Of a stretch of DNA of 64,000 nt, positions 17,523-64,000 are shown piece by piece. A program made the translations under genes and the position numbers. The stretch comes from Antedon mediterranea. Its lineage: Eukaryota > Echinodermata > Crinoidea > Comatulida > Antedonidae. Numbering within the stretch: the first letter of the stretch is position 1; the number at the start of each line of letters is the position of its first letter. The DNA is taken from contig NC_092675.1 of the NCBI RefSeq assembly GCF_964355755.1, positions 24,034,412 to 24,098,411 of the forward strand, written 5' to 3'. The notes under the pieces are model-generated. The model had not been told where the DNA came from and did no database searches. It saw only the letters and a list, made by a program, of their open reading frames with translations.

Positions 17523-19604
17523 TAGCCTGGGTGCAGAACAATTATTATACACATTTGCGGGAAAAAAGTATAGGAAAATTTTTGTTTGGTTTTTCTAATA
17601 ATAGAGTATACCATATAGAATGTCAGAAAAAAAATCCCCATCCCAGGGTCTTGAGGAAAATTTTTTATGACATTTTTAAATTTTGGCCTATATAACACAC
17701 ACAAATTTCTATTAACACACACAAATACCTATATATATAATATAGGGGATAGGGAAAATCAATTAACAGTTTTTGTTACTTGCAGTTGTGTTTTAATGAT
17801 TAAAATTAGTAGAGGCTTACTTTAATAACTGCTTCTCATAGTAGTTGATGAATCAAGTCGATACGATGACATCATCATGCCAGAATCCAATATGGCGGGA
17901 AAAACAGGGTATTGCTAAACCCCCTCAAACCCCTGGAAACCTGGAAAAAAAACATAGAAAACCCCACCGAACCAACATAAAAGTGATTGAATCATGGAGT
18001 GTACGACCCACTAGGTATGTCCATGTAAAAAAAATTAAAAATTTATACTGTTAACTACTTATTTTTGGGGTAAAACATCATTTTTTGGTTAAAAATTAGC
18101 AATCATTTTTTACCAAAAAATGATGTTTACCCCAAAAATAAGTAGTTAACAGTAGAAATTCAATATTTTTTTACATGGATATACCCAGTGGGTCGTACAC
18201 TACATAATTCAATCACTTTTATTATTTTGGTTCGGTGGGGTTTGCTATGTTTTTTTTTGAGGTTTGCAGGGTTTAGCAATCATTTTTGACCAAAAAATGA
18301 TGTTTTACCCCAAAAATAAGTAGTTAACAGTAGAAATTTTTTTTTTTTTTTTTTACATGGATATACCCAGTGGATCGTACACTACATGATTCAATCACTT
18401 TTATGTTGGTTCGGTGGGGTTTGCTATGTTTTTTTTTAGGTTTGCAAGGGTTTGCGGGGGTTTAGCATTACCCTGTTTTTTCCTCCAAATTGGACGCCAT
18501 ATTGGATTCTGGCATGATGATGTCATTGTTATCGACTCGATTTATCAACTACTATGAGAAGTAGTTATTAAAGTAAGCCTCAGCAAATTTTAATCATCAT
18601 AACACAACTCCAAGTAAAAAAAATGTGAATTTGTTTTCCCTATCCCCTATATATAGGTATTTGTGTGTGTAATAGGCATTTGTGTGTGTTATATAGGCCA
18701 AAATTTGAAAGTGCCGTAAAAAATTTTCCCCAAGACCCTAGGATGGGGATTTTTTTTTCTGACATTCTATATGGTATACTCCATCAGAAAAAAAAGAAAA
18801 CAATTTTCCTATACTTTTTTCCCGCAAAATTTGTACTGCACCCAGGCTAAAAATTAACAATCATTTTTTACCAAAAAATGATGTTTACCCCAAAAATAAG
18901 TAGTTAACAGTAGAAATTCAATATTTTTTTACATGGATATACCCAGTGGGTCGTACACTACATAATTCAATCACTTTTATTTTTTTGGTTCGGTGGGGTT
19001 TGCTATGTTTTTTTGGAGGTTTGCAGGGTTTAGCAATCATTTTTGACCAAAAAATGATGTTTTACCCCAAAAATAAGTAGTTAACAGTAGAAATTTAATT
19101 TTTTTTTTTTACATGGATATACCCAGTGGATCGTACACTACATGATTCAATCACTTTTATGTTGGTTCGGTGGGGTTTGCTATGTTTTTTTTTAGGTTTG
19201 CAAGGGTTTGCGGGGGTTTAGCATTACCCTGTTTTTTCCTCCAAATTGAACGCCATATTGGATTCTGGCATGATGATGTCATTGTTATCGACTCGATTTA
19301 TCAACTACTATGAGAAGTAGTTATTAAAGTAAGCCTAAGCAAATTTTAATCATCATAACACAACTCCAAGTAAAAAAAACGTGAATTTGTTTTCCCTATC
19401 CCCTATATATAGGTATTTGTGTGTGTAATAGGCATTTGTGTGTGTTATATAGGCCAAAATTTGAAAGTGCCGTAAAAAATTTTCCCCAAGACCCTGGGAT
19501 GGGGATTTTTTTTCTGACATTCTATATGGTATACTCCATCAGAAAAAAAAGAAAACAATTTTCCTATACTTTTTTCCCGCAAAATTTGTACTGCACCCAG
19601 GCTA
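17523..19604. mobile_element. 2.1 kb fold-back element with internal tandem duplication
   Basis: The ends are inverted copies: TAGCCTGGGTGCAG at 17523 and CTGCACCCAGGCTA ending at 19604. The left arm (17523 to about 18095) is the reverse complement of a right half that itself occurs twice, as tandem units of about 755 bp (about 18095-18849 and 18850-19604). Each right unit also has an internal partial duplication of TTTACCCCAAAAATAAG and the following CCAGTGG-GTCGTACAC segment. The centre near 18090 is a palindrome built on CATCATTTTTTGG. Open frames here are repeat artefacts. It resembles a Foldback-type DNA transposon that has been tandemly copied. Confidence 0.8.
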
Positions 19605-22305: not shown

Positions 22306-23700
22306 TTACAAATGTGTTATATTTGGTTTGGAGTCTTTCCTTTGATTTTGTCTTACAGCTCTACCAGGTAGTCCATGCGACTCATCGTCTTGCTGATTCT
22401 TCTGAGAGCTTGATGATGTAAGAGAATTTGTTCTCCTTGGCAATGGTGGAGGGATTAACTCTGGCAAAGGTGGGCAATTCCGTGCCAACTGCCTTGCAGA
22501 CAGTCTTCGTGGGTTTTCACTAATACTCAAATCACTCATTTTCCCATCTAGATTCAAGGGTGGAACCATTGGTGTTGGTAGTGGTTCAGTTCGTCTGTCA
22601 TTTAAATATGTATGATGAGCCACATTGCCGACAGTGTCATACAAGGATGGCGTTGGCAGTTCTACCTCCTCTTTTGTAAACGTACGTCCAGATCTTTTTT
22701 TAGCATTTCTTGAAATCTTTCTAGTTGGTGGTAGATTAGTATTTGTTGTCTCAGTATCGACTGAGACAATATTGCCTTGTACACTAGACCCATAGTTTTC
22801 TGCTCTATGGTTTTCATACTGTAATGCACCAACATTTTCACTTGATAATGAGTCTGTTCTACTACTGCGAGTTGATGTCATGCTTGCATAGCCACTAGAA
22901 GCACGATCCCACTCTGGAGTGGAGTTAATGTAACTTCGAGGGGGTGAATCATTGCTTACAGGGTGAAAGGTATGCGAGCTAAGTTCATTTGCTGGGTTAC
23001 TGATTGTTAAGTATTCTGGTTGTTCATTTTCATTTGTGTTAGTAAACTGTAGTGAGCTGGCATACACAGGATCTTCAGATGCACTATCCTCTTTTATGTC
23101 GACAGCTTGTGTCTTCCTTACTTGAGGTGCTGTATTTGATTTCTTATCCTCTCCATCACACGAACTACGTTTTTGGTCTGGTTTAGCTGTTTTCTGCATC
23201 TTTAACCCAGCTACACCCTTTTTCGGAGCACATATTAAGTCGCGTTTAATAATTCTCTGCCTTGTGGGATCATTGCGTCTCATCTGTACCATATTCTCAA
23301 AGTCAATAACATAAAGGAATCCAGCAATGAGAATCTCTACAGATTCTTGTTCTTTAGAGTACGCCGTTTCCAGTTCTTCATTTGTGCGTTCATCGTACTG
23401 CCACCAACCATTTCTACCCTCGTAATACCATGAATATTTTTCTTCACGTTCAGATGACTCGTTCTCATTACTTTGTTGTAGTTCCTTACTAATTTTCACT
23501 AGCCGTGGGTGATTGAAGTAGTCCATAGGTATCTCCTTGCGACACAAAGCACAGCGTTTACTTCTGTTGGCTGCTCCTTTCACACATAGAAAACAGAAGA
23601 TATGACGACAAGGCAATTGCACTGGATAGATACATGTTTGGAGACACACAGAGCATTCCAAAGGATTATCAGCAGAATTTGCATCACTTTTGGTAGTCAT
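22306..23700 (-). CDS. RNF146: RNF146 (Iduna), poly-ADP-ribose-dependent E3 ubiquitin ligase
   Basis: This single coding exon of 464 aa is read on the minus strand. The ATG lies just inside an exon whose acceptor TTTTTAATAG is about 15 bp upstream, so the 5' UTR is spliced. A C3HC4 RING spans residues 16-53 with C16, C19, C31, H33, C36, C39, C50 and C53. A WWE domain follows at about 88-154, with [20 protein letters not shown] and later [14 protein letters not shown]. The RING-WWE order is diagnostic of RNF146, which binds iso-ADP-ribose on PARylated proteins and ubiquitinates targets such as axin with tankyrase. A candidate tankyrase-binding motif, RSSCDG, sits at 178-183. The C-terminal 280 residues are low-complexity, Ser/Thr/Pro-rich, and longer than in human (359 aa total). 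The domain identification is firm. Confidence 0.95.
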
Positions 23701-23788
23701 CTTGGACTTGTGTAATTCTATTAAAAATAAAATAATAATTAAATTAATTCTACAGCCCTAAAGTTTCAAATAACTTTTATAGTGTGTA

Positions 23789-30100: not shown

Positions 30101-33100
30101 AATTGGGAAGCTGCTCTTGAAGATCTAAAGAGATTGCGAAATACTATTGATTCAAATGTAAGGCTTCAAATAAAATTACCTGTTTGTGAGTGAGTGGAAA
30201 TGTAAGCTGGTGGTTGAAATTGATACAGCATTTATTGACTGTGTGTTCTGTAAAAGGGAAGTGTCACATTGTTACAGTGATTAAATTTGCTATGTTTAAT
30301 ATTTTGTTTTGTAGCAAGCATTTGTGTCACCTCTCCAACTGCTTCAGCAAAGAACATGGTTAATACATTGGAGTTTGTTTGTATTCTTCAACCATCCTGA
30401 AGGCAGAGATGACATCATTGATCTATTCCTATATCAACCTCAGTAAGAACACCTATAATTTGTATAAACGTTTAATTGTACTGTACATTACAGCTACGCA
30501 TAACCCTTTGTAGTCTATGCCCATGTAGATTGCAGTCCTACAAGGTATTATTATTACCTTCATTTCTCTACAAGTTGGATATATTTAACACTATACTTTG
30601 TAGTCTATGCCCATGTAGATTGCAGTCCTACAAGGTATTATTTTTACCTTCATTTCTCTACAAGTTGGATATATTTAACACTATACTTTGTAGTCTATGC
30701 CCATGTAGATTGCAGTCCTACAAGGTATTATTATTACCTTCATTTCTCTACAAGTTGGATATATTTTACACTATATTTTGTAGTCTACGCCTGTGTAGAT
30801 TTTAGTATTTTATTGTAATATCTACATGTCTCTACAAGTTCGATCATAGGGCTAATAAACAAACACCATTGTTTCCAGCATTTAAAACAAAAAAAATGCT
30901 GCAAATTGTAAATGCCTAAATGGTATTTATAATAATAGATAGTATTTTAGTATGTTTTAGCCTTATTATCAAAAACAAAAATGTTTGCTGATAAAGTTTC
31001 TTTACTACTTCTGCTTGTTTTTTTCTTAGTTACTTAAATGCTATACAGACCATGTGTCCGCACATTCTACGATACCTTACTACAGCTGTAATTACAAACA
31101 AGAAACGACGACAATACTTAAAAGATCTCATAAAGGTTATACAACAGGTAAGGTTGTCAATTATTTAAAACGGAAAAAGTATGGCTGATTTAGATAGTTA
31201 CTAGGATAACGCAGAATTGTAAACGTCTTCAATAGTATTAATTGTATAGTTGCTGAACTTTCTTTTTTGACCAATTTTTCACCTGTGTGTATTTTTTATT
31301 TAGTTAGTTCTATAACTTTACTAGGATAAGTACCCTAGTTCTGACAAGGCCTAGACTCGGCTGGTATCCCCATATACTTTGGTTTGGGTGCTGTAAAGAG
31401 ATTCCTCTTTCTCTTTCCCTTTTCACAGCCCTTCAAGACTTTGTTTTTTTACACTATACCAATTTATTATTATACAATAATAATATTTACTTTTGTAGGA
31501 GTCGTACACTTACAAAGATCCAATAACAGAGTTTGTTGAGTGTCTTTATGTTAATTTTGACTTTGATGGTGCTCAACAGAAGTTACGGGACTGCGAAATT
31601 GTAAGTATAAATGCAGGCTGGTTTAATGTGAATCGTGTACCCTGTTTCCGCAGTCGGTATGTGTCTTATGTCAGCCTAGCCTAAATATTATGGCTTTCAA
31701 ATTTGATGCGCTCACCATTATAATGTTTTTTGTTTTATTAGGTGCTTGCAAATGACTTTTTCTTAGTTGCTTGTCTGGAAGATTTCATTGAAAACGCCAG
31801 ATACTTTATTTTCGAAACATTCTGTCGCATTCACAACTGCATCAGCATAAGGTAAAGTCTTTATACATTGATTTCCAAAGTGGATCAGTGTATACAAAAT
31901 ATATGTTTATTCTTTGTTAATTTTAGTAGTTAATCATAGTTATTGTGGATTGATAATCTTGCACTCTGTTTAAACAGTTGTTTTTATTTGTAACATTGTC
32001 CACTACACTTTGGGACCGTTATCATAAATCCCACTATTAATATGAATCTATTATTATACATTAAAGCTTGGTTCCCATGGGGATGTAAGTGTAATGCAAG
32101 TAATTTATTTATTCCAACTGTTGGTTGTCATTGGTCAACTTACTTGCGCTTAAGTCCTTTCGTTACATTCTAGTGGGAACCAAGCTTAAAGGCACCGTTT
32201 CTACACACAACCAATGTTGAATAATTATTGGTATTTTTTTTCAATGATTTTTGATTTTGGGATTTTCAGCACAAGATAGTATACCTCACATCTGACACTA
32301 TTAATTGTACTGTTGTGCACAGCTTAAAACCCCAATATAGAAAAGTTATTAATTTTGTTGATATTTATCCATTTTAATTGGCTCATATTAATGTATTAAT
32401 TAATTTATTTACAAACAACAAATTATACATACGTCAAGTATAAATAAATAGAACAAAAGTTGTACGGAAGAAGAATATTTTTCTTCTTCTTCTTTATTGT
32501 ATCAAACAAAAACAATTTCCAATACAAAAGGTAGCCAAGGTATAGCCGAAGCTAATCAAGCTTGGTACCTTTTATCTTAACTAACTTAAGCTACGAAATT
32601 AACAAATAAATAACAGAACTTAAAAGAAAATAAAAATTTGATAACGTCAAAAACAAAACAAAAAATGTTGAATAATAAATAAATAACATAACATAAAGTC
32701 CTGTATGTACTATACTGTAAGTATGTAAGTAGTGTACTAAGTTAAAAGAGATATTTATTAATTGTTATCTTGTTCCATTACAACAAAAGGTAAATAAATG
32801 TTACTTTGAACTTTGTTTTCAGTATGCTGGCAGAGAAATTAAACATGAATCCGGATGAAGCTGAGAGATGGATTGTAGAACTGATTAGAAATGATGTCAG
32901 ATTGGATGCCAAGATTGATTCTAAATTAGTGAGTGATTAATATATGATGATATTACAACTTTAAATACCTTCGAACCTCCTTTAAGTCTGTTGAAGTAAT
33001 TTGCGTTGAGGCGGCCTCATTCAACGATTTCACAGGAAAAAGGACATTCAGGATTTACGTCAAAATATTTTGGATCACTGAAATGTTAATGGCTGATAAC

Positions 33101-58214: not shown

Positions 58215-58410
58215 CTGATCTGACCATCCTTTCCAGAATAAAGTATCTTTCTCATTGGATCACGGCTTTTACCATCTTCTCCAGAAATAAAGAATCTTGC
58301 TTTTTGGATCGCTGTTTTACCATCTGATCTCCAGAAATAAAGAATCTTGGTTTTTGGATCGCTGTTTTACCATCTTCTCCAGAAATAAAGTATCTTACTC
58401 TTTGGATCAT
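58215..58410 (+). repeat. Tandem repeat of about 62 bp, four imperfect copies
   Basis: Units contain CCAGAAATAAAGAATCTTG, then TTTTTGGATCGCTGTTTTAC and CATCTTCT. The first and last copies are diverged. It lies just 3' of the membrane-protein gene on the minus strand. Confidence 0.75.
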
Positions 58411-58603: not shown

Positions 58604-61600
58604 TCATAGTTTAATATCTTCGTATACTGGTTCCGAAGTTTTGTTGTTACGCTTAGCAGGGTTTGGCTTAGAATATAACTCACCAACGTTGATATAGTGG
58701 GATGTTCGTATCGGTTTTGTTTTCTGATCATTATTGTCGTCAGCGGGAATATAAATTATATTTTCAACGGTACCAACTAGGTTGTCTTCGTCCATTGAAT
58801 TATCATCTACAACTGTTGACGATTGCTTGTTGACACTGCAAGCTAAGATTGATGAGTCAAAATTACCAGATGCAACCGATTGCGCCTTGATACCATCACA
58901 ATTTTCAGCTGACTGTGTGTTTACAACGCCAGCTGCAGCCGACTGCTTTCCGACACCACCGTTTATACCTTCAGCTGCAACAAGTTGAGTGTTGATCTTT
59001 TGTATTGAGTCCATACAAGGAGTTTTCTTATTTTGTCCATCTGCAATAGTTTCGTATGGTTTCTCATTGATACCCTTTTCTATGTCATTTTCTCCCGTAT
59101 CATCTTTCACACAGTGTAATTTCTGAACGGGGGTGTTCTTTTCTTTATCAATGACTATCTGTGTTTCGTATATTGCATTTTTGTCAGTCTGTTTTACTGA
59201 ACTTGCTGGGCACTTATGTTTATCCTCAATATGTATTTCGTTTATTATAATTTTATTGCTGGTCTCTTCTTTTGACACTTTATCTAAAACCAGTACGGTA
59301 GATTCTGAAATGCAGCTTCTTTTCTCTTCTTTCGCTAGTTTCTTTCTTTCATCGTCGTTGGCATTGGCTTCCGAAATCTGTGGACAAGACTTAACAGCTT
59401 TTGATAAAGCTACACAAACTGCTTCAGTATTCTGCTGCCCATTATCTATGTCGTCATCATCACCCATGTTGATTTTCAATGGCATTTCCTCAGCCGGATA
59501 AGGTTGATCATTAGTTTCTGTAAAACATATAGCATTCTGTGAGTTTGAACATATTTGCTTTCTTTCTCTTAAACCAAATGTTTTCAGATCTTTGTCACAA
59601 GCTTCGGAATTGTCAATTATTTCTGTTAATTCTTCTTCTGGACTGTCGTTAATAGATTTATTTTCTTCGGGGTTTTCTTCGTCGGATTCATTAATTGAGG
59701 GATTTGATTCATCTGGTTTTGGAATATACATGTTCTGTAATTGTTTATTTTTGCGACTGAAAAAAAAAACAGATTAAAATGAGCATGGTTTCTTAATTGC
59801 AATGGCATTGCAAACATTACGTCAGTATTATTGTTAAAATGGTAACTATCTCTATCCATTTCTTTGGCAATGGACTGCATTTAAACAGGTAATACCAATG
59901 CATTCACAAATTTAATAATTTTTCGTCATACATCACAATCATTGTTTTCTTCATCATTACATTATTAATCATAATTGTCATCATTTTAATCATGCTAAAA
60001 GCACTTTAGCTCGCGCTCGGGAAGAAACTATTATGCCTACAGGTTGGTGAATAATATTTACCATTGTTTGCACAAATTTATTGAGAGAATCACGATGATG
60101 AAAAATGACAGACCAAAATAAATCCCAACTGAAAGAAAAATGATCATAAAAATACACTTTCTTTGACTCAACACCAACAACATTACAGAGTGTTTATTAT
60201 CATTTACAAGATTTAAAAAGAAAGAGATACATAATGTAAGTTGATTATAACTCTGATCATCCTTTTAACTCAAAATTCTAAAGATTATTTAAATTTATAC
60301 CAGACTTTAATTAAATAATTTTCTTTAATGATATCAGTTTCATCCAAAGAATCAATCTAAAACACTGGTTACGTTATTTGATGTCGCATTCATTATTCAG
60401 TTGTTATTTTTTCCTATAGTACAATAAACACAATATGTCTACTTTATTTTTGTTTATGTCATGTAATTCACATACCATGTCATGATGTAATCATTCATAT
60501 TCCTAGAATAACTTACCGACAATACAGCATTTTTCAAAATCTATATAAATAATGAGATGAAAAACAATAAATACAAAAGAGAGAGCAAGGCGTAAATGCA
60601 AAAGTCACGGACAGGCATGTGAAATTCCACAATTAGAATTGGGTACAGAATTATAATAAACCGTTAGCTAATTTACTATGCTTAAATTTAAGTTAACGTT
60701 AATAAACGTAAAATTTAATTCATTTAGGCATATGAATGATGATTATATTTTGGAAGCGGTAAAGAACGAGAAAATGTTTATACAAATTGAGTACAACACT
60801 AATCCTTACCTTGAAATAAAGGGTCCAGAAAACAACAACCTGTTTGCAGGCCTAAAAATAGCAGAAAATAAATTATTTTTCTTCTCTCACATTTTACTCA
60901 CTGCACAAAATAATAATAATGAACATTATTTCATATAAAGCTTATTTTCTTCCTATTCAAACGATTTTTCTCTCTTTCGTGGGTTTAGCCCACTTTTATT
61001 CATTATTCTATTCATGACAAAGGTATACAAAGATTACAAAGTTAAAAAAAAAATTACTAACATGTATGTACAATAATATGGTTAAAAGAGATATCTTTTT
61101 TAAAACATAACATAATTGGATATCTTTTAAAACCTAACATAATTGATTATATTGGCACATAACCTCTTATAAAATTTGGCTAACGTATTGAAGCGTTGTT
61201 TTTCTTTCCTTCCTTTTCATCTTTCTGTTTTATATAGTAAAACACAATAAGTGTATTAAAAAAAAGTTACTTTTGTATTTTTTAAAATTTTTCTCAATAT
61301 AGAAGAAAGAAAGAGAAAAGAGAAAAAAAAAAACGAGTTTTCATTTCGATTTTATGAAATGTGATTCATTAATTTATCTTTTACTTTAGCCCATTTAATG
61401 TGAGCTTTATTTACATTACAAGCATATTGGTTAGCTAATACATTTCTGAGCTAATTAGATACATATTTGTGTAACCGTACTAGACTGTTATAAACATATT
61501 CAATATTCTTTATATTATAATATTATTAGTTATAATAGACGTTATCTAAAAGTTGAATTAATTGCATTTCATTGTTTTCACTACTATTGGAATAAATAGT

Positions 61601-63316
61601 AATAACATTAGGCGTATTATTATTTTATTTATCTTTTATAATACATAAATTTAGAAATGACAAGAAACACAATGACTGGAATGCTTACCCGGTGGCGACG
61701 GTGAATCTGATGCTGTGCTCATGATTTCTGTGACTGTTGTACAATCAACGAAAAACATAATATTCATTACAATTTGATTCATATTATTGCATTTTTGAAA
61801 GGTAAATAATAATAACAATAGTAACTAAAATAAAAGTAGTAATACGACAAATCATGTTGCGAATTAAGAGACGTTCACTATATAACTTCCGAATTTAATG
61901 ACAAAAAAATGAGGTTTCGGGACCATCATAGAATCATTCTCAAATGATGTATGCAAAAGTCGATATTTTGTGTCATTAAGTCAAATCATTTTCTACATCT
62001 ACTACAGCACTAAGACAGATATATTACTTAAATGATAAAATAATGTTAACCTACTTTTGGATCTTAAGTATTATTTGGATTTCAAGTTCATTTAATTTAC
62101 TTCAAAGTGTGCTGTAATGCATCTCTAGTATCGCGTTGTATAATACAAATTGAATTAATTGCATTTTTTTTACTATTACAATATGAATAAGAAATTCTTA
62201 CCCTCTGTATTTGTGCTCCCCATGATTGTTGTGCCGATTGTATTCCCTAAAAACATGATATAAATTTTATTTTATTTTATTTTTATTTTTTTATATTACA
62301 ATAATATGAATAAGAAATTCTTACCCTCTATATTTGTGCTCCCCATGATTGTTGTGCCGATTGTATTCCCTAAAAACATGATATAAAGCATTTGTTACTA
62401 TTACAATATATGAATAGATAATAATTGTTATGTTTTATTTAAAAATACATATATAAAGAAAATCTTACCCACTGTATCTGTGCTCCCCGTGATTGTTGTG
62501 CCGATTTTATTCACTAAAAACATTATATAAAGTTATTTAAAAAATGCATTCTGACTATTTGTTTTCTCATTTTTAATGTATTTTGTAAAAATAAAACAAT
62601 TAATTAATCTTTTACCTTACATTATCATACTTTTTAGTATTCAGACAGCACTAAGACAAATATATTATTTGAATGATAAAATAATATTAGCTTACTTTGG
62701 GATCTTTAAGTATATTATTTAGATTTCAAGTTCATTTAATTTACTTCAAAGTGTATCTTCACATTCGCGTTGTATGATACAAATTGAATTTATTGCATTT
62801 TTTAAATTATTACAATATATATGAATAAATAACAATTGTTATGTTTTATGTAACATATATAAAGAAATTCTTACATTTGTTGTGTTCTCCATGACTGTTG
62901 TGCCGATGATATTCACTAAAAACATGATCTGTTTTTCTCATTTTTAATGTATTTTGTAAAAAAAAGTAGTTAATCTATTAACTTACATTATTTAGATGTT
63001 TGTCAGTGTTCCTTCCACGTTCCGTGTTTATTCTAAAATGATAAAAGAGATTCAAGAATAGATTCAATAAGTCGATAGCTGTAACAAAACTAAATCTTTT
63101 GAACACATTTTTAGGGAAAATCCAGATCGATTATCAGAACATGAAACATGTTATTATCTAAAATATCATGGCTCGTTATTAGAGGTTTCAACAATTTGCT
63201 GAGGTACAGGTACTTACCAAACTGCGAATTTCGAGGATGGAGTAGATGTCTTGTCACCAGTATTCGGTCTGCTGTATTCAGTTGATTCAGTTTGTTTTAG
63301 TCTGAAGGTTTCTATG
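58604..63316 (-). CDS. Single-pass membrane protein with Thr-rich repeat stalk and acidic tail (partial)
   Basis: I do not recognise this gene. Eight minus-strand exons join into one open frame of 512 aa lacking its N-terminus: 63218-63316, 62875-62915, 62469-62513, 62325-62369, 62202-62246, 61689-61733, 60062-60128 and 58604-59756. The outer part is Thr/Ser-rich, with 15-residue repeats such as NTIGTTIMGSTNTE from separate 45-nt exons, a probable O-glycosylated stalk. One transmembrane segment follows (GIYFGLSFFIIVILSINL), then a basic stop-transfer CKQCRKNKQ. The tail of about 380 residues is very acidic and Ser-rich, with loose repeats of the VNTQSA and KAQSVASG kind. It ends with HYINVGELY and PVYEDIKL. 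YINV fits the Grb2 SH2 consensus and YEDI resembles pYEEI. A signal peptide must lie beyond the window if it is type I. The TM and tail are well supported; the two upstream exons are tentative. Confidence 0.6.
61689..62915 (-). repeat. Tandem array of mini-exons (exon plus intron units)
   Basis: Four 45-nt units at 61689-61733, 62202-62246, 62325-62369 and 62469-62513 share TTTTTAG-type acceptors (except the first listed), GTAAG donors and the same phase (one base carried over). A decayed 41-nt copy is at 62875-62915. The units at 62202 and 62325 differ by one base within the exon, and their flanking introns (GAATAAGAAATTCTTACC and CTAAAAACATGATATAAA) are also nearly identical. Confidence 0.85.
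61985..62890 (-). repeat. Larger direct duplication enclosing the mini-exons
   Basis: AGCACTAAGACAGATATATT, then GGATTTCAAGTTCATTTAAT and TTACTTCAAAGTGT at about 62006-62115, recur with modest changes at about 62647-62755. Each copy leads into GCATTTTTT, ATTACAATAT and a mini-exon. The array therefore grew by at least two duplication scales, about 640 bp and about 123-144 bp. Confidence 0.75.
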
Positions 63317-64000
63317 CTGCAGTGTACAGAAAGTGATACTCTAAACTGTTATGCTCATATTGAAACTATCGATATGCAGATTATGTTTTTAAAACAAATA
63401 GACAAAAGGTTTCAATAATATGTTGAGGTTTATAAATATAATGTAATCGTGATTAGGCCTAAACTCTTGCGTTGTTTAGATAGCAAAGTAGCTAGGAGGT
63501 GACATTCGCTTAGCTTGTCTGAATTTCAGACAAGTATAATTTTAGGATTATGGGATACATTTGAGAATATTAGGTTATTTTAAAAAGAAGTGGGAAACAA
63601 AATCTATGGGATGCGAAAGATTTGATCCGCAAAACCGCGGAACAAACAGCATTGATTCAATCATAGGCCTATATACGTTTTTCAAGATTCTGAATAAAAA
63701 TTTTACATGATTAGTATTGCCATCGTTCTCATAATACCTAACTTAACTTAACATTGGGAGTATTGAAATGTAGGCCACGTAGTTGTTTGTACTCCTCCTC
63801 CCTACACAGAGTTAATACAGTTGTGGATATTTTACTTCGTTTTTTGATCCCAGCAGTTCTTATTTAATGTTACCATTTTAAGTTATTGTAATTAATGTAT
63901 GCTGTTTTTATTTCTTGAACTGTTTCTAAATAAATTGCATTTTTTACCTAGGTCAAAGGTCAAATTCTCAAAAAGTGCAATTCAGTGACCCCGTACATAT
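63317..64000. other. Right edge, no gene identified
   Basis: Upstream exons of the membrane-protein gene may lie here or beyond the window; none could be supported. A perfect AGGTCAAAGGTCA lies at 63950-63962 and a short palindrome around CTTGTCTGAATTTCAGACAAG at about 63516-63536. Confidence 0.5.
63950..63962 (+). promoter_or_regulatory. Perfect DR1 nuclear-receptor element sequence
   Basis: AGGTCAAAGGTCA is two AGGTCA half-sites with one base between, the consensus for RXR heterodimers and HNF4. It lies 0.6 kb upstream of the first visible exon of the minus-strand membrane-protein gene. The function is unknown and chance is possible. Confidence 0.3.

Follow-up and report, generated by a model that had tools for sequence, protein, structure and literature searches.

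The window analyzed here, the whole stretch of 64,000 nt at C6:24034412-24098411, raises the question of what a tandem run of short, exon-like units on its minus strand represents. The first-pass annotation read the run as copied 45-nt mini-exons encoding a Thr-rich stalk on a receptor-like membrane protein. We found that the observation behind this reading was largely right and is partly confirmed, and that the interpretation was plausible but overstated, with part of it supported. All features of the array gene lie on the minus strand and are listed in Table 1.

Three good 45-nt units, U1, U2, and U3, carry the array, each in phase 1-1, open in a Thr-rich frame, preceded by a TTTTTAG acceptor, and followed by a GTAAG donor. 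They are homologous tandem exons (two being the minimum for a symmetric-exon array) with a length divisible by 3 and a shared phase, and their identity to U1 is 98% for U2 and 89% for U3. The earlier statement that the units at 62202 and 62325 are almost identical, intron flanks included, held up: a single base of the 45 separates U1 from U2, their downstream introns are identical over all 37 aligned bases, and their 20-nt acceptor sides agree at 18 positions. Such near-identity fits recent copying, with homogenisation also a possible cause. A 123-nt period was detected by TRF and a four-copy, 101-nt family by repeat search. The window contains 7 matches to the pattern [CT]TTTAG-N38-46-GTAAG, compared to a mean of 1.15 and a maximum of 3 in 20 dinucleotide shuffles; five of the seven matches fall at 62.2 to 63.1 kb, and another is exon J. 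Together with the homology of both exons and introns, this period and this clustering bear out the tandem copying of exon-intron units. The units also stand out in base composition, with a GC content of 39 to 53% compared to 7 to 25% in the flanking 60 nt (for U1, U2, and U3, 44 to 47% against 7 to 18%); 45% GC is reached by 2.7% of the other local 45-nt windows. A second pair of similar candidate mini-exons was not found over 94 kb on both strands. The segment at 62987-63032 was considered as a sixth unit and rejected, since it is 46 nt long, yields stops when joined to the units, and is dissimilar to them, its scores against units being equaled or exceeded in 207, 130, and 51 of 500 shuffles.

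Table 1. Features of the array gene, with positions in the window.
Feature	Position	Strand	Description
Unit U1	62202..62246	-	45-nt phase 1-1 mini-exon, (G)NTIGTTIMGSTNTE; acceptor TTTTTAG, donor GTAAGA, open
Unit U2	62325..62369	-	45-nt phase 1-1 mini-exon, (G)NTIGTTIMGSTNIE; 44/45 identical to U1; 78 nt between U1 and U2
Unit U3	62469..62513	-	45-nt phase 1-1 mini-exon, NKIGTTITGSTDTV; 40/45 identical to U1
Unit U4	62875..62915	-	41-nt copy, homologous, splice-like ends; frame-breaking in the Thr frame
Unit U0	61689..61733	-	Old diverged copy with shifted borders, (V)TEIMSTASDSPSPP; frame open as well from the ATG at 61782, upstream
Intron block F of U3-U1 group	62000..62201	-	Duplicated at 62640-62874; 88.6% identity, 166 aligned positions
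Exon J	60810..60851	-	42-nt phase 1-1 juxtamembrane exon, (G)LQTGCCFLDPLFQ; acceptor and donor consensus, compatible phase
Transmembrane (TM) exon	60062..60128	-	67 nt, phase 1 in, 2 out, (V)GIYFGLSFFIIVILSINLCKQ; phases as in the TM exons of two neighboring receptors
Cytoplasmic tail exon	58604..59756	-	384 residues, ends ...EPVYEDIKL stop; coding score +91 bits; unique in genome
Possible upstream exon	63218..63340	-	Ser/Thr-rich, QTESTEYSRPNTGDKTSTPSSKFAV; good donor, open frame; coding score not above background; weak

An open frame of 480 codons, stop included, runs from U3 through U2, U1, U0, J, and the TM exon into the tail. The TM exon that the first-pass annotation had placed at 60062-60128 is indeed an open, exon-like segment of 67 nt with the phases listed in Table 1, and the TM segment is followed by a basic stop-transfer sequence. 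The tail exon, in phase 2, contains eight tyrosines, among them those in SHYINV (with the ITIM-like YINV), YETI, and the terminal YEDI, and includes YxxPhi motifs; its coding score was obtained with a small codon model, for which nearby genes served as the training set. Thus, the TM segment, the stop-transfer sequence, and the YxxPhi and ITIM-like tyrosines speak for the predicted membrane protein with a signaling-type tail, while the search for its ectodomain and signal peptide was unsuccessful. Just past the 3' end of the array gene, at 58223-58408, there is a 48-nt tandem repeat of 3.8 copies.

The search for the front of the gene covered Pfam domains, signal peptides, and paralogues. A three-frame Pfam search of the minus strand, through the array region and the 10 kb upstream of it, detected no domain, and the following 10 kb, in two of the three frames, gave only one meaningless sub-threshold match; as a positive control, a plus-strand search by the same method recovers the SRCR and WSC domains of a neighboring gene. 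A convincing signal peptide was not found upstream on the minus strand, so this region yielded neither of the two hallmarks of a complete receptor, a signal peptide and a ligand-binding ectodomain. Paralogues of the tail or TM exon, sought across the genome because they might reveal an ectodomain, were not found either.

The gene layout can be compared with that of two receptor genes that lie on the plus strand of C6 past the adjoining end of the window, an SRCR-WSC gene (L002:1070-6941) and a double C-type lectin gene (L003:1302-5084). These genes encode Pfam SRCR, WSC, and Lectin_C domains, and each combines a TM exon with a long tail rich in tyrosines. Like the array gene, they have short phase 1-1 stalk exons, a TM exon that runs from phase 1 to phase 2, and a large phase-2 tail exon; the short exons, which we read in the sequence, lie just before the TM exon, and one of them is 27 nt long (L003:3101-3127). 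Unlike the array gene, both have recognizable ectodomains, and neither has tandem copies of a stalk exon. By its layout, the array gene would belong to this cluster of receptors with tyrosine-rich tails, and we read the U units and J as stalk exons because their position and phase match the layout of the neighbors. Since a signal peptide and an ectodomain were not found, we call the gene receptor-like on the grounds of layout and do not file it as a member of the cluster. SRCR domains number in the hundreds in this genome, with 150 scored matches from 408 candidates; in this respect it resembles those of sea urchin and sponge, for which massive SRCR expansions are reported (PMC10855680).

With moderate confidence, we propose that the array consists of tandemly duplicated juxtamembrane stalk exons in a gene for a receptor-like, single-pass protein, whose splicing, expression, glycosylation, and signaling, as well as a function for stalk length, are predictions from the DNA sequence. 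At least three nested rounds of copying would have multiplied a juxtamembrane stalk exon together with its intron, giving first U0, then a block that became U4 and the ancestor of U3 to U1, and recently U3, U2, and U1. Each 45-nt phase 1-1 copy would add 15 Thr-rich residues, and the added repeats would lengthen an O-glycosylatable spacer, much as the tandem hinge exons of IgG3 do. The splice-like borders, the GC islands, the open frame, the coding score of the tail, the intron homology, the uniqueness of the array, and the layout of the neighboring genes argue for this stalk-exon reading.

The history of the array can be read from its introns as well as its exons. The intron block at 62000-62175 matches that at 62640-62812 with 88.6% identity, and the introns flanking U3 are 88 to 93% identical to those flanking U4. 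These identities give an order of copying in which U0 split off first, a block duplication then gave the U4 block and the U3-U1 block, and U3, U2, and U1 followed, with U1 and U2 last. The array arose as exons were duplicated together with their introns, in tandem and in nested rounds. Across the 354-Mb genome of 18 contigs, the array and its exon core match only themselves, and because the array is thus unique, a dispersed transposable element or satellite was ruled out as its origin. Two interspersed repeats lie close by: one of about 490 bp (60960-61450), with dozens of copies in the genome, has inserted into the intron that separates exon J from U0, and another of about 106 bp (63830-63935) has at least 40 copies.

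Sequence divergence among the units is less favorable to a functional stalk. Exon identity among the older copies (82 to 89%) is no higher than intron identity (88 to 93%). Of the 11 changes scored, 10 are nonsynonymous in the Thr frame (P = 0.19) and 6 in the alternative frame (P about 0.05); these are few changes, and in neither frame is the difference from chance a clear one. Relative to the introns, the units show no sign of purifying selection. The equal divergence of exons and introns and the 10 of 11 nonsynonymous changes count against the stalk-exon reading, as do the frame break in U4 and the unsuccessful search for an ectodomain or signal peptide. The array gene may have lost a ligand-binding ectodomain, and it may be truncated or decaying. 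In the fullest form of this alternative, the ectodomain was lost through a rearrangement, the tail remains open, and the array, with U4 already frame-broken, drifts neutrally; the equal divergence and the lack of a detectable front fit it well. Beyond the window, a receptor-like tail exon on the plus strand at about 64169-64332 (L002:281-444; KDYQNG...YENMSIAALP stop) has a good acceptor, and no TM exon was found upstream of it; it looks like a relic, apparently an orphan, and a second plus-strand relic lies near 64643-64844. Because these relics and the two dispersed repeats suggest a rearranged region, we regard decay as a serious rival, if an unlikely one, against which stand a 384-residue tail without a stop, with its strong coding score, and the compatible phases kept in J, the TM exon, and three of the units.

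A less probable alternative turns on U0, one of the two copies for which the claim that every unit is 45 nt long and in the same phase, correct for U1, U2, and U3, breaks down. The ancestral U0 acceptor, TTTTTAG, is now TTTTTCG, so splicing at this unit must use the present acceptor, CAACAG, which lies further in; the 3' end is longer, and the 45-nt length of U0 is therefore a coincidence. That U0 is nevertheless a copy is indicated by its alignment score with U1, reached by none of 1,000 shuffles, and by its downstream intron, which keeps a trace of array-intron homology (2 of 1,000 shuffles). The absence of a good polypyrimidine acceptor at U0 and a frame that is open from the upstream ATG to the donor would suit a coding sequence that starts in an extended U0 (ATG 61782, MNQIVMNIMFFVDCTTVTEIM...), leaving U1 to U4 as untranslated or intronic tandem repeats or as alternative first exons; the in-frame ATG of U1 to U4 in ATGTTTTTAG means that each of them could also start translation. 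We consider this improbable, given that the ends of the units resemble acceptors and donors, that the units form stretches of exon-like GC content inside an AT-rich intron, that the alignment of U0 with U1 maintains the Thr frame through an in-frame 3-nt gap, and that such a start does not produce a usual signal peptide.

U4 is the other exception, in that this 41-nt copy, when joined to U3 in the Thr frame, gives a TGA at the next junction. Not every copy in the array preserves the frame, and we regard U4 as a degenerate copy that does not belong to the functional set. It is very unlikely that U4 instead works as a frame adaptor, leading from the possible upstream exon (63218-63340, ending in phase 2) through its other frame to U3 in phase 1, with skipping or inclusion switching the frame: the chain from that exon through U4, U3, U2, U1, U0, and J to the TM exon is open, and synonymous changes among U1, U2, and U4 are more frequent in the alternative frame (5 of 11, P about 0.05), but the acceptor of the upstream exon is poor and its coding score does not rise above background, the phase agreement is expected about one time in three by chance, and U3 has a stop in the alternative frame. 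Slightly less credible still is a recently copied mini-exon stalk with a 41-nt frame switch, whose inclusion would set both stalk length and whether the TM frame is reached.

If the units are stalk exons, as we favor, the array would be filed with known cases of tandem duplication of phase-symmetric spacer exons, of the IgG3-hinge kind. In human IGHG3, the hinge exon is duplicated head to tail, with up to four exons and a triple 15-residue repeat that is O-glycosylated, and hinge length differs between allotypes (PMC4202688, PMC10328927). The array would share with it a head-to-tail copied spacer exon and a 15-residue repeat; however, the IGHG3 hinge belongs to an antibody, is rich in Cys and Pro, and is known from proteins and alleles, whereas the array would encode a putative stalk that is Thr-rich and membrane-proximal, and the two have no evident sequence relation. 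The chicken BG genes of the butyrophilin family are membrane receptor genes with numerous short exons of a fixed length, whose number varies from gene to gene, and show splice variation (PMC5938342), but their 21-nt exons encode a cytoplasmic coiled-coil tail, while the array exons are few and predicted to be extracellular. A looser likeness, for which we claim no homology, is to the micro-exon genes (MEGs) of schistosomes, which contain series of short exons with lengths mostly divisible by three (PMC10526429); these encode secreted parasite proteins and have mostly smaller exons and introns of up to about 5 kb. The resemblance of the array to IgG3, BG, and MEG exons would be one of mechanism and layout, and we claim homology to none of them.

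Transcription of the array would make it an invertebrate parallel to the multiplication of IgG3 hinge exons, in which receptor spacer length evolved independently by copying of phase-symmetric exons, and the copies are young enough that copy-number variation would be expected. If it is not transcribed, the locus would be an example of exon-like arrays persisting in a decaying receptor locus.

Elsewhere in the window, we observed at 18096-19449 a tandem pair of about 180 nt and, after it, a 19-nt repeat, the whole arrangement being duplicated about 757 bp downstream, and a 90-nt tandem repeat of 3.3 copies with 96% matches (30506-30801). The minus strand also contains, at 22306-23757, a single-exon open frame of 483 codons with RING and WWE domains, which is RNF146-like.
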